A stretch of DNA of 64,000 nucleotides from Streptomyces rubiginosohelvolus (lineage in GTDB: Bacteria > Actinomycetota > Actinomycetes > Streptomycetales > Streptomycetaceae). The stretch covers positions 142,818 to 206,817 of the forward strand of contig NZ_BMTW01000007.1 of the NCBI RefSeq assembly GCF_014649875.1, read 5' to 3'. A program made the translations under genes and the position numbers. The first letter of the stretch is position 1; each line of letters begins with the position of its first letter. The notes under the pieces were generated by a model, which saw only the letters and a program-made list of their open reading frames with translations, was not told the DNA's origin and ran no database searches. This document shows, piece by piece, positions 46,424 to 50,934 of the stretch.

Positions 46424-47968
46424 TTACGGGTGCTCGATGCCGTCCTCCAGCTTCTGGCCCCGCAGCAGGAACCAGGCGGCGACGGCCGCCGCCAGCAGGA
46501 CCGCCGCGCCGACGCCCGCGGCCGACCGCAGTCCGTCGACGAACGCCTCCTGGGCCGCCGAGACCAGCGGCCCCGCCTGCGCGGCGGGCAGCGCCGCGGC
46601 CGATTCGACCGCACCGCCCAGCGACTCGTGGGCGGCCGACTCGACATCGGCGGGGATGCCGGACGGGGTCGGGAAGCCCCGGTAGACACCGGTGACGATG
46701 GAGCCGAGCAGAGCGATGCCGAGGGCGGCGCCCAGTTCGTACGCGGTCTCGGAGACGGCGGACGCGGAGCCCGCCTGCTCCTTCGGGACGCTGGAGAGGA
46801 TCACGTCGGCGGTGACGGTGAAGGCGAAGCCCGCGCCGACGCCGACGACCAGCAGCATCGCGCCGAGCAGCGGATAGCCGGTGTGCTGGTCGAGCAGGGT
46901 CACACTGCCCAGGGCGAGACCGACCGCGGCCAGGCCGCCCGAGACGACGGAGCGGACCGAGAAGCGGCGGGCCGCGAATCCGGCCAGCAGACCGGCGGTC
47001 ACCGCGCCGATCGCGGCGGGCAGTTCGGCGAGTCCGGCCTCCAGCGGGCCGCGGCCCTGGACCAGTTGCAGGAACTGGGAGAGGAAGAAGACCAGGCCCG
47101 ACAGTCCGAGGATCGTCAGCAGGTCGGCGAGGACCGCGCCGGAGAAGCCCCGGTGGTGGAAGAGCCGCATGTCCAGCAGGGGTGCGGGCAGCCGCAGTTG
47201 CCTGCGGACGAACCAGGTCAGCGCGCCGACGCCGACGACGGCGGCCACGGCCGAGTCCCAGCTCACTCCGTGCGAGGCCGTCTCCTTGATGGCGTACACG
47301 ACACCGATCATGCCGACCAGGGAGAGCCCGACGCTGAGCATGTCCCACGGGCCGGGGGCCGGGTTCTTGGACTCGGGGATCAGCTTGATGCCGACGACCA
47401 CGAGGACGGCCATCACGGGCAGGTTGATGAGGAAGACCGAGCCCCACCAGAAGTGTTCCAGCAGGAATCCGCCGACGACCGGGCCGACGGCCGCGCCCGC
47501 CGAGGCCATGGCGCCCCAGATCCCGATGGCGAGGCTGCGCTCGCGCGGGTCGTGGAAGAGGTTGCGGATCAGGGCGAGCGTGGACGGCATCAGGGTGGCG
47601 CCCGCGACACCGAGGAGCGCCCGGGCCACGATCATCATCTCGGGCGTGGTCGCGTACGCGTTGAGCACGGAGACCGCGCCGAACGCCACGGCGCCGACCA
47701 GCAGCAGCTTCTTGCGGCCGATGCGGTCGCCGAGGCTGCCCATGGAGACGAGCAGGCCGGCGATGACGAAGGAGTAGACGTCACCGATCCAGAGCAGCTG
47801 GGTCCCGGTGGGCTCCAGGTCCTCGCTGAGGAACGGGGTGGCGAGACCGAGGACGGTGGCGTCCACGGCCACCAGCAGCACGGCGAGGACGAGGACGGCG
47901 AGCGCGATCCACCGCCCTGGACGGCGTACCGCGTCCATGGTGTCCGGGTTCTTCTCGGTGCTGATCAT
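46424..47968 (-). CDS. MFS drug efflux transporter, DHA2 (EmrB/QacA) type
   Basis: A 514-residue, about 14-helix major facilitator. It has RWIALAVLVLAVLLVAVDAT at the start, motif A GDRIGRKK, and motif C-like GAMASAGAAVGPVVGGFL. It would export drugs using the proton gradient. ATG at 47968 overlaps the TetR stop (ATGA), so regulator and pump are one operon. The substrate is not evident from sequence. Confidence 0.93.
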   Translation of the reverse strand: MISTEKNPDTMDAVRRPGRWIALAVLVLAVLLVAVDATVLGLATPFLSEDLEPTGTQLLWIGDVYSFVIAGLLVSMGSLGDRIGRKKLLLVGAVAFGAVSVLNAYATTPEMMIVARALLGVAGATLMPSTLALIRNLFHDPRERSLAIGIWGAMASAGAAVGPVVGGFLLEHFWWGSVFLINLPVMAVLVVVGIKLIPESKNPAPGPWDMLSVGLSLVGMIGVVYAIKETASHGVSWDSAVAAVVGVGALTWFVRRQLRLPAPLLDMRLFHHRGFSGAVLADLLTILGLSGLVFFLSQFLQLVQGRGPLEAGLAELPAAIGAVTAGLLAGFAARRFSVRSVVSGGLAAVGLALGSVTLLDQHTGYPLLGAMLLVVGVGAGFAFTVTADVILSSVPKEQAGSASAVSETAYELGAALGIALLGSIVTGVYRGFPTPSGIPADVESAAHESLGGAVESAAALPAAQAGPLVSAAQEAFVDGLRSAAGVGAAVLLAAAVAAWFLLRGQKLEDGIEHP

Positions 47969-48516
47969 TGCTCCACGCTCCGGCGTGCTCCGCCGAGCAG
48001 CAGCTCGACGATCATGTACTGGAAATCCTGTGCGGCGACCCGGCCCGCCTGGATGGACCAGGCTCCGGTGCCGACGAGGCCGTAGAGGGCCTCGGTCAGC
48101 CAGGCGGGGGTGAGGTCGATACGGAACTCGCCGCGTTCCTGGCCGCGGCGGAAGAAGGCGGAGACGCGGGCGTCGGCCCGGTTCCAGCCCTCGTTGACCT
48201 CGTCGCCCTCGAAGAGCTGGTTCTCGTTGACGAGGAAGGACATCAGCCCGGCGCTGGGCTCGACGGCCGCGATGAGTCGCCGCAGCCCCTCCTCCGAGGT
48301 GTCCTCGTCGAGCCGGGCGGCGTCCAGGGCCGCCTCGAACTCCTGGAGACCGAGGTTCTCCAGCGCCTTCACCAGGGCGTCGCGCCCGGCGAAGTGGCGG
48401 TGGAGGGTGGCCCGGCCGATACCCGCCGCCTTGGCGACCTCGTCCATGGTGGCGGTCGATTTACGGGTCAGCAGGGCGGCGGCGCTGCGCAGCACCTGCT
48501 CACGGTCGAGTGTCAT
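47965..48516 (-). CDS. TetR-family repressor of the adjacent MFS pump
   Basis: A 183-residue TetR/AcrR protein with an N-terminal helix-turn-helix (TMDEVAKAAGIGRATLHRHF) and a C-terminal ligand domain. I choose ATG at 48516: an inverted repeat with TetR-operator features begins on that codon, and TATGTT 7 nt upstream fits a -10 of a leaderless transcript. The longer frame to 48543 would translate through the operator. Presumed autoregulator of the TetR-MFS operon. Confidence 0.9.
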   Translation of the reverse strand: MTLDREQVLRSAAALLTRKSTATMDEVAKAAGIGRATLHRHFAGRDALVKALENLGLQEFEAALDAARLDEDTSEEGLRRLIAAVEPSAGLMSFLVNENQLFEGDEVNEGWNRADARVSAFFRRGQERGEFRIDLTPAWLTEALYGLVGTGAWSIQAGRVAAQDFQYMIVELLLGGARRSVEQ

Positions 48517-48553
48517 GAGACGAACATAACCCATGTGAGACATCTTCGTCTCA
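48516..48553. promoter_or_regulatory. Probable TetR operator with three half-sites
   Basis: TGAGACGAA (48516-48524) and its complement TTCGTCTCA (48545-48553) form a 9-bp inverted repeat. A further TGAGAC at 48536-48541 makes an 18-bp TetR-sized palindrome with GTCTCA (48548-48553). It overlaps the start of the TetR gene. Confidence 0.65.
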
Positions 48554-48610
48554 TCGAAGAGCGTGCGGGCTCACCCGGGGGCGAACCGGGCGCGGCGGGA
48601 TGGGACCGGG

Positions 48611-48650
48611 AAACAAAAAAAGTGGCCGGAGGAAGAACCTCTCCTGGCCA
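48611..48650 (-). terminator. Intrinsic terminator on the minus strand between helR and tetR
   Basis: Read on the minus strand: stem AGTGGCC/GGCCACT extended by GGAG/CTCC with one bulged A, then TTTTTTTGTTT. The T-run is outstanding for this GC-rich DNA. No minus-strand gene ends here; it lies just after a minus-strand promoter. Confidence 0.8.
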
Positions 48651-48657
48651 CTCTCAA

Positions 48658-48686
48658 CTTATAGCGCATGGGGGGTCTTGCCGCAA
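48658..48686 (-). promoter_or_regulatory. Minus-strand promoter inside the helR inverted repeat
   Basis: -35 TTGCGG (48686-48681), 17-nt spacer, -10 TATAAG (48663-48658). Predicted start near 48651, directly before the terminator hairpin at 48650-48611. Confidence 0.6.
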
Positions 48687-48694
48687 GGCCCCCC
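48670..48694. promoter_or_regulatory. Rifamycin-associated-element-like inverted repeat upstream of helR
   Basis: GGGGGGTCTTG-CCG-CAAGGCCCCCC, 11-bp arms with one mismatch. From memory, a CTTGCxGCAAG core inverted repeat (RAE) controls rifamycin-inducible genes in actinomycetes, including helR. Here it lies 75 nt upstream of the GTG of a HelR-type gene; a plus-strand -35 TTGCCG (48679-48684) with CAGAAT 18 nt further would start toward helR. Confidence 0.75.
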
Positions 48695-48768
48695 AAATGC
48701 CGCAGAATCGTCCGCCGTAGCCGGGACGGGGCACCGCCCCGTAAGCACCGCAGATCGGAACTGACGAC

Positions 48769-50934
48769 GTGACACCCCTGACCACCAGCGCGTTCGACCT
48801 CCCCGACCGGCTCTCCCCCAAGGCCGACCCGGCGCTGATCACCGAGGACGAGCAGCACTTCGCGGCCATCGCCCACTGCCTGGAACAGTCGATCGCCGAG
48901 CTGACCGACCGGCTCGCGGCCGAGCGCCGGGCGCCCGGCGGGGCGAGCCGGGCCGCGATGGACCGGGACGTGGAGATCCACCGGCTGACCGCCCGGCTGC
49001 GCACCCTGCGCCGGTTCGGCCTCGACCTGTGTCTCGGGCGCATGGTCCCCGCGGACGGCTCCGGGCCGCTGTACGTAGGGCGGCTCGGCCTCACCGACAG
49101 CACGGGCCGCCGGCTGCTGGTCGACTGGCGCTCCCCCGCCGCCGAGCCGTTCTTCGGCGCCACCCACGGCGACCCGATGGGCCTGGTGAGCCGCCGCCGC
49201 TACCGGTGGACCGGCGGCCGGGTCGGCGACTACTGGGACGAGGTGTTCGCGCCGGAGGGGCTCGCCGGGCATGCCGCGCTGGACGACCGGTCCGCGTTCA
49301 TCGCGAGTCTGGGCTCCGCCCGGTCGGCCCGGATGCGCGATGTGCTGGGCACCATCCAGGCCGACCAGGACGCCGTCATCCGGGCGGGCTCCCGGGGCGC
49401 GCTCGTCGTCGACGGCGGGCCCGGCACGGGGAAGACCGTCGTCGCCCTGCACCGCTCCGCCTATCTGCTGTACGCCGACCCGCGCCTGGGCCACCGCCGC
49501 GGCGGCGTGCTGTTCGTCGGGCCCAACGAGCCCTATCTCGGGTACGTCGCCGATGTCCTGCCGAGCCTCGGCGAGGAGGGGGTGCAGACGTGCACCCTGC
49601 GGGACCTGGTCGCCGAGGGCGCGGCGGCGGAGCCCGAGACCGATCCGGAGGTGGCCCGGCTGAAGGCGTCGGCGGAGCTGGTGGCGGCGGTCGAGCCGGC
49701 CGTCCGGTTCTACGAGGAGCCGCCCTCCGAGGGCGTACGGGTGGAGACGCACTGGTCGGACATCTGGCTGAGCGCCGCCGACTGGGCCTCGGCGTTCGGG
49801 GCGCCGGATCCGGGCACGCCGCACAACGAGGCGCGCGAGCAGGTCTGGGAGGAACTGCTCACGATCCTGGTGGACAAGCACGACGGCGACGCCCCGGCGG
49901 AGCAACTGCGCGCCTCGCTGCGGCGGAACCGGGAGCTGTTCGCCCTCTTCGACCGTGCCTGGCCGCTGATCGAGGCGGCCGACCTGGTCGCCGACCTCTG
50001 GTCCGTACCCGCGTATCTGCGCAGGTGCGCCCCCTGGCTGACCACCGAGGAGGTCCGGCGGCTGCGGCGGGCGGACGCGCAGGCCTGGACGGAGTCCGAC
50101 CTGCCGATCCTGGACGCGGCACGGCTGCGGCTCGGCGATCCGGAGGCGTCCCGGCGCCGGCGCCGCCACGAGGCCGCGGCCGCCGCCGAGCGGGAGCAGA
50201 TGGACCGGGTCGTCGAGAGTCTGCTCGCCGACGAGACGCTGGCCGACGCCGATGCGGACGGTGAGGGGGCGCTGGTGATGCTGCGTGGGGAGGACCTGCG
50301 GGAGTCCCTGGCCACCGCCGACCGGCCGAGCGGGGTCGAGCCGGACCTGCTGGCCGGGCCGTTCGCGCACATCGTCGTGGACGAGGCCCAGGAACTGACC
50401 GACGCCCAGTGGCAGATGCTGATCCGGCGCTGCCCGTCCCGCAGCTTCACCGTCGTCGGGGACCGGGCGCAGGCCCGGAACGGGTTCCCCGAGACCTGGC
50501 GGGAGCGGCTTGAGCGGGTCGGTCTCGACCGGATCACCCTGGCCTCGCTGACCGTCAACTACCGCACGCCGGAGGAGATCATGGCGGAGGCGGCACCGGT
50601 CGTCCGGGCCGCGCTCCCCGACGCCAATGTGCCGGTCTCCGTCCGCAGCAGCGGCATCCCGGTCGCCCACGGCCGCGCCGAGGACCTGGACACCGTCCTC
50701 GCCGACCGGCTCGCCGCGCACGAGGACGGGACCGCCTGTGTCATCGGCGCCCCGGACTTCCGGCCGACGGCCCGGGTGCGGTCGCTGACCCCGGAGCTGT
50801 CGAAGGGCCTGGAGTTCGACCTGGTCGTGCTCGTCGAACCGGAGACGTTCGGCGAAGGCGTCCGGGGGGCGGTGGACCGGTATGTGGCGATGACCCGGGC
50901 GACCCGGGAACTCGTGATCCTCACGCGTCCCTGA
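48769..50934 (+). CDS. helR: HelD-family RNA polymerase recycling ATPase, HelR type
   Basis: A 721-residue UvrD/Rep-like ATPase of the HelD family. It has an N-terminal coiled-coil arm (about 25-95, EDEQHFAAIAHCLEQ), a family-specific LLVDWRSPAAEPFFGATHG, Walker A GGPGTGKTVVALHR (about 214) and Walker B IVVDEAQELTDAQWQML, then late motifs in TVNYRTPEEI and the end SKGLEFDLVVLVEPE. Known role: HelD-type proteins pull nucleic acid and inhibitors off stalled RNA polymerase, and HelR displaces rifamycins. The upstream RAE-like repeat makes the HelR assignment likely. The start is GTG at 48769. Confidence 0.88.
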   Translation: MTPLTTSAFDLPDRLSPKADPALITEDEQHFAAIAHCLEQSIAELTDRLAAERRAPGGASRAAMDRDVEIHRLTARLRTLRRFGLDLCLGRMVPADGSGPLYVGRLGLTDSTGRRLLVDWRSPAAEPFFGATHGDPMGLVSRRRYRWTGGRVGDYWDEVFAPEGLAGHAALDDRSAFIASLGSARSARMRDVLGTIQADQDAVIRAGSRGALVVDGGPGTGKTVVALHRSAYLLYADPRLGHRRGGVLFVGPNEPYLGYVADVLPSLGEEGVQTCTLRDLVAEGAAAEPETDPEVARLKASAELVAAVEPAVRFYEEPPSEGVRVETHWSDIWLSAADWASAFGAPDPGTPHNEAREQVWEELLTILVDKHDGDAPAEQLRASLRRNRELFALFDRAWPLIEAADLVADLWSVPAYLRRCAPWLTTEEVRRLRRADAQAWTESDLPILDAARLRLGDPEASRRRRRHEAAAAAEREQMDRVVESLLADETLADADADGEGALVMLRGEDLRESLATADRPSGVEPDLLAGPFAHIVVDEAQELTDAQWQMLIRRCPSRSFTVVGDRAQARNGFPETWRERLERVGLDRITLASLTVNYRTPEEIMAEAAPVVRAALPDANVPVSVRSSGIPVAHGRAEDLDTVLADRLAAHEDGTACVIGAPDFRPTARVRSLTPELSKGLEFDLVVLVEPETFGEGVRGAVDRYVAMTRATRELVILTRP

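Follow-up and report, generated by a model that had tools for sequence, protein, structure and literature searches.

A conserved antisense promoter predicted within the RAE palindrome ahead of actinobacterial rifamycin-resistance genes

Results and Discussion

The helR locus and its RAE

The window analysed here, a stretch of 64,000 nucleotides (72.7% GC) from Streptomyces rubiginosohelvolus, contained helR, encoding an RNA polymerase recycling motor ATPase that matched NF041254 at 1255 bits against a cut-off of 750 (Table 1). On the other side of the intergenic region lay genes for a TetR-family regulator and a DHA2/LfrA-like MFS efflux protein. The palindrome between them, GGGGGGTCTTGCCGCAAGGCCCCCC with core CTTGCCGCAAG, was a rifamycin-associated element (RAE) both by sequence, as a 19-bp palindrome around CTTGCSGCAAG, and by position, with a rifamycin-resistance gene downstream. 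RAEs were described as 19-bp palindromes at rifamycin-resistance genes by Spanogiannopoulos (2014), here as related in PMC10719064, and the published element agrees with the one analysed here in palindrome, in the genes served (helR, rox, rgt, arr) and in the overlapping sense -35 (PMC10719064).

On the minus strand, TTGCGG (48686-48681) was followed after 17 nt by TATAAG (48663-48658) and then by GAGTGGCCAGGAGAGGTTCTTCCTCCGGCCACTTTTTTTGTTT. An earlier note on this DNA had read these hexamers as a promoter inside the RAE, and the sequence was present as it described. Its placement of the -35 within the RAE stood; the -10 is better read as TAAGTT after a 19-nt spacer, because mycobacterium-like homologues drop the upstream TA and keep TANNNT at the same position. 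TATAAG begins two bases further upstream than TAAGTT, and its first bases were not kept in mycobacterium-like arr loci. The same palindrome held a mirrored sense promoter for helR, TTGCCG-19-CAGAAT. The further description of the minus-strand motif as one of the better σ70-like promoters did not hold, as its consensus count of 8/12 was reached by 39 sites in the window, itself included. A generic promoter and terminator scan of the window detected neither the antisense promoter nor the antisense terminator, whose stem is bulged and whose loop is long. With a weak motif score and a silent scan, the case for the antisense promoter rests on conservation.

Reading along the minus strand, the TTGCGG of the palindrome was followed by TATAAGTT and then by a hairpin and seven T. 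The hairpin region folded at -20.1 kcal/mol (z -2.8), and the AAAAAAA at 48615-48621 was the single A7/T7 run within the 64-kb window. A GC-rich hairpin with a U-tract is the make-up of an intrinsic terminator, so the earlier claim of a terminator immediately after the antisense start was borne out; the predicted antisense RNA would be about 36 nt long. An Rfam search of the site returned nothing at gathering score and chance matches only. By a strict pattern the genome held two RAE promoters, at helR and at an rph-like gene. The second (L002, G000:C3:300566) carried a near-identical antisense block, GCGCTATAAGTTGAG, again followed by a hairpin.

Table 1. Features of the helR intergenic region and its neighbours, in window positions.
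Feature	Position	Strand	Basis or remark
RAE palindrome GGGGGGTCTTGCCGCAAGGCCCCCC, core CTTGCCGCAAG	48670..48694 (core 48677-48687, dyad 48682)	.	Sequence
Predicted sense -35, TTGCCG (towards helR)	48678..48683	+	Sequence; mirrored geometry at 151/162 sites; M. smegmatis P2 -35 over RAE (PMC10719064)
Predicted sense -10, CAGAAT	48703..48708	+	19-nt spacer; 21-26 bp off dyad
Predicted antisense -35, TTGCGG, overlapping the sense -35	48681..48686	-	Sequence
Predicted antisense -10, TAAGTT	48656..48661	-	19-nt spacer; 21-26 bp off dyad; TANNNT at 156/162 sites
Conserved discriminator and start GARAGT/GG; predicted antisense +1 at 48649	48648..48655	-	G at +1 (98% of sites) and +2 (96%)
Predicted terminator hairpin of the antisense transcript	48621..48652	-	Folding; stem covariation
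U-tract of the predicted antisense terminator, TTTTTTT	48615..48621	-	Sole A7/T7 run of the window
helR, RNA polymerase recycling motor ATPase	48769..50934	+	NF041254, 1255 bits
Inverted repeat ATGAGACGAACAT/ATCTTCGTCTCAT at tetR start, probable TetR operator	48515..48554	.	Operator role inferred
TetR-family regulator, likely start near 48516	47965..48543	-	Outside conserved element
MFS (DHA2/LfrA-like) efflux gene	46424..47968	-	Outside conserved element

Conservation of the mirrored promoter layout

We gathered RAE sites by the palindrome alone, using the pattern GGNCTTGCGGCAAGNCC. Of 150 genomes from the genus, 127 contained it (a reversed control pattern gave few matches), as did 48 of the 114 genera in the class. 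TANNNT stood on one arm in 156/162 sites, drawn from 48 genera, exactly 21-26 bp from the dyad, and in 151/162 CANNNT stood on the opposite arm as well, likewise at exactly 21-26 bp; TANNNT on both arms was found at none of the 162. The two -10 elements, TANNNT (antisense) and CANNNT (sense), were thereby each separated from their -35 by 19 nt. The CANNNT arm led into a resistance gene, the products being HelR (64), Rox (40), Rph (19), Rgt (15), Arr (6) and an ABC transporter (3), with families assigned from sequences and the window gene by NCBIfam. One Arr of the set presumably resembles the M. smegmatis enzyme. None of the ORFs on the TANNNT arm matched the HelR, Rox, Rph, Rgt, Arr or ABC families. 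The RAE promoters ahead of ABC-transporter ATPase genes (L073, L075, L077) mark these as candidate rifamycin efflux or protection genes under the same control.

An independent set of 80 helD loci was fetched by protein similarity, ignoring the RAE. Fifty contained the RAE core with at most one mismatch, at least one of these (L189) being a chance match, and among the 50 candidates antisense TANNNT was present in 46 and sense CANNNT in 48; at two further loci, L168 and L213, the antisense box was present, displaced by one base. Outside the class, where sites were picked via the sense half alone, antisense TANNNT was found in 8/8 credible sites, a ninth (L249) resembling a chance match. Complete RAE promoter pairs outside class Actinomycetes (L248, L258-L264) lay ahead of monooxygenase (rox-like) or rph-like genes. 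Variants of the RAE core mostly preserved TTG...CAA, and the antisense arm was conserved at least as well as the sense arm. A scan of viral contigs found no such layout.

We are highly confident, on the strength of these site sets, that the RAE is the shared core of two predicted back-to-back promoters in mirror image whose architecture is conserved throughout the phylum. The layout extends from Streptomyces to mycobacteria, and the predicted antisense promoter is universal at RAEs. The earlier note had staked its proposal on promoter and terminator being kept in relatives; they were, the terminator commonly and not universally.

Two further sequence elements were seen near RAEs. In the sense leader of many rgt, rox and rph loci (e.g. 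L047, L079), a block resembling GGCCGARGCCAGAACCTGCGGAAA was conserved 33-60 bp from the dyad. Upstream of mycobacterial helD (L093, L168, L169), an SOS-box-like TCGAACATGNGTTCGA lay on the antisense side, about 55-75 bp from the RAE, so that helD there adjoins a probable DNA-damage promoter.

Asymmetry of the two promoters

The antisense -12 was T in all sites and the sense -12 was C in 97%, a contrast that is partly due to how the sites were oriented, with gene-based orientation concordant in all families. Discriminator GC was 0.44 on the antisense side (GARAGT) versus 0.81 on the sense side, antisense starts had G at +1 in 98% and at +2 in 96% of sites, and a purine occupied +1 in 155/156 antisense versus 13/156 sense arms. 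By general knowledge of promoters, these contrasts suggest that the antisense promoter would be the stronger of the two and the sense promoter the weaker, with its C at -12, GC-rich discriminator and pyrimidine at the usual +1. Counting against promoter function, the spacer is 19 nt long in each, and each -35 is poor, agreeing with consensus at 3-4 of 6 bases.

The antisense terminator

A strict definition of a hairpin followed by a T-run was satisfied by 65/156 antisense arms and 2/156 sense arms, against about 13 for shuffled antisense arms. Within the genus 46/69 sites had a strict antisense terminator, elsewhere 19/87, and among arr loci 0/6. In many sites the stem began at the predicted +1. 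Self-pairing was perfect in 48 sites compared to 13.8 when arms were exchanged between sites, and where a base of the 5' stem departed from consensus pairing with the opposite base was retained 93 times out of 131 (75 Watson-Crick, 18 G-U), counted by a stem-anchored leave-one-out procedure. RNAalifold on a MAFFT alignment of the hairpins returned no structure because loop lengths vary. The terminator, as predicted from this pairing, is selected as a structure and is common without being universal, unlike the antisense promoter. A variable loop with a covarying stem is as expected of a terminator and not of a sequence-specific sensor RNA, a role that had also been proposed for the short transcript and that we do not favour.

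The neighbouring efflux genes

The tetR-MFS pair accompanied just 5 of about 236 RAE/helD loci, and by rough ORF scoring the neighbouring gene on the antisense side faced the RAE at 68 loci and pointed away at 50. With such mixed orientation and so rare a pair, the antisense promoter has no consistent target gene, and neighbour orientation ruled it out as the driver of a divergent gene. A gate coupling efflux to helR, as the earlier note had envisaged, accordingly found no support. At one locus (L165) the same tetR-MFS pair as at 46424-48543 of the window sat beside an RAE driving rox in place of helR, suggesting exchange of resistance genes at one site.

Relation to known promoter systems

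Bidirectional promoters in bacteria commonly share or overlap their -10 regions. The RAE resembles them in having opposed promoters with common elements and differs in that the overlap lies at the -35, within a fixed palindrome, and under one drug response. Among the openly searchable journal papers, none was found that describes an antisense promoter at the RAE; the accounts read present a putative factor site with sense promoters and mention neither a mirrored antisense promoter nor a terminator for it. Mapping in M. smegmatis placed the -35 of sense promoter P2 over the RAE, and a further sense start, P1, is reported some 20 bp upstream of the element (PMC10719064); no conserved -10 for P1 was seen in Streptomyces-type loci. 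Rifamycin-inducible, palindrome-dependent expression is known for M. abscessus helR (PMC10719064). In M. smegmatis, rox, helD and arr rank with the most strongly rifampicin-induced genes, independently of sigB (PMC6529629).

In B. subtilis, a strong antisense promoter at helD makes a terminated RNA of about 90 nt and silences the sense promoter until rifampicin causes arrest (PMC12802891, 2026). Its authors set the actinobacterial RAE aside as a separate case with an unexplained mechanism. The two are alike in placing a strong antisense and a weak sense promoter before helD, in the short terminated antisense RNA and in the use of polymerase as sensor, the RAE counterparts being predicted. They differ in geometry: the B. 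subtilis helD/pps promoters are convergent, share no -35 and act by collision, whereas those of the RAE diverge from overlapping -35s. An antisense and a sense promoter before a rifampicin-defence gene were recognizable at the RAE by sequence only, and the convergent arrangement with 45-100 bp between promoters was absent. The RAE is therefore a system that would work like the B. subtilis dual-promoter alarm and not a member of it. Mycobacterial rpoBC has tandem promoters, and rifampicin shifts output to the second of them (Zhu 2018, as outlined in PMC10719064). The rpoBC pair shares with the RAE, as proposed here, two promoters of unequal rifampicin sensitivity, and differs in being tandem, in its roughly 2-fold response, and in having neither palindrome nor antisense RNA.

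RNA polymerase as a possible rifamycin sensor

The conserved two-promoter layout may be a means of sensing rifamycin. We put the probability at roughly 0.55 that it is a polymerase-sensing promoter pair, in which the weak resistance promoter is held in check by the strong antisense one until rifamycin-bound polymerase lifts the restraint; here we infer that both promoters fire, which of them is the stronger, and that the drug operates the switch. The RAE would supply a single -35 core to two divergent promoters of housekeeping type in mirror image, of which the antisense one would yield a dead-end RNA, stopped after about 35 nt in many loci. While polymerase is active, repeated antisense loading would capture the common -35 and starve the sense promoter. 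Rifamycin-bound polymerase would arrest at the antisense promoter as a plug, blocking further loading there, so that drug-free polymerases could load on the sense side and turn on helR, rox, rph, rgt or arr. The polymerase itself would then be the sensor, and the earlier link to RNA polymerase as the rifamycin target is plausible. A weak point is that such a plug would work only if drug-arrested polymerase held the antisense -10 and start while freeing the common -35.

In a stochastic version with illustrative parameters of our choosing, the plug raised sense output about 4-6-fold once 1-5% of the polymerase carried the drug. Strict steric exclusion was rejected as the switch: calculated as (1-phi)(1+a)/(1+(1-phi)a+phi·a·r), induction never exceeded 1 over the parameter grid, because an arrested polymerase that blocks both sides can only lower sense output. 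Nor can the B. subtilis collision mechanism be carried over unchanged, because the RAE promoters diverge. That the RAE needs no dedicated drug-binding regulator, being a protein-free switch of mirror promoters on one -35 with the antisense side plugged, seems to us a proposition of slightly less than even odds. The rifampicin-resistant polymerase subunit of the RAE carrier Nonomuraea (PMC8655204) is awkward for a polymerase sensor.

Alternatively, the RAE might be the operator of a rifamycin-responsive transcription factor that controls both flanking promoters, the antisense one being secondary. This is the view taken in the literature (PMC10719064, PMC12802891), and in M. abscessus removing half of the RAE abolishes induction (PMC10719064). 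A perfect palindrome of 19-21 bp fits a bound regulator, as do the GGGG/CCCC flanks, which are conserved beyond what a -35 requires. A regulator site alone, however, leaves unexplained why antisense TANNNT, GARAGTGG and the GG start are kept before six unrelated gene families with no consistent gene downstream of them; the palindrome can be read as two overlapping TTGCSG -35s, in keeping with its core variants, and no RAE-binding factor was reported in the literature examined. We regard an operator, though the main rival, as rather unlikely.

The remaining explanations concern the antisense transcript. It could act in trans, its loss under rifamycin derepressing the resistance genes: a short-lived RNA of this kind would naturally report on initiation, and its 5' stem, GGCAAGGAG, is strongly conserved in Streptomyces-type loci. 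The non-conserved loop and covarying stem speak against this, as do the few recognizable terminators in other genera and their absence from arr loci, and the antisense RNA has no overlap with the sense mRNA; we hold it to be improbable. Another possibility is that a symmetric -35 creates the antisense promoter as an inert by-product, with the hairpin serving as an ordinary insulating terminator. Bidirectional promoters are common in bacteria and stray transcripts are stopped by terminators, yet a by-product would decay, while the antisense TANNNT is kept across the palindrome-defined and independent sets, on an arm conserved no less than its sense counterpart, which makes this very improbable. 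Least credible is that read-through from the antisense promoter joins tetR-MFS efflux with helR. The layout does exist in the window, its neighbours are common to four relatives, and in two of these (L024, L165) no clear T-run follows the hairpin; against it stand the rarity of the pair, the mixed orientation of upstream genes at other loci, and a probable tetR operator (48515-48554) beyond the terminator.

Implications

With a conserved second promoter predicted in the RAE, a single point mutation in the antisense -10 could answer the question of how rifamycin is sensed, and the two-promoter layout offers a sharper signature for inducible rifamycin-resistance genes. If the polymerase-sensing promoter pair is correct, Actinobacteria from Streptomyces to mycobacteria would possess a protein-free drug switch with a geometry unlike the convergent B. 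subtilis version, and a single principle, in which RNA polymerase acts as the sensor, would cover rifampicin sensing in both groups.
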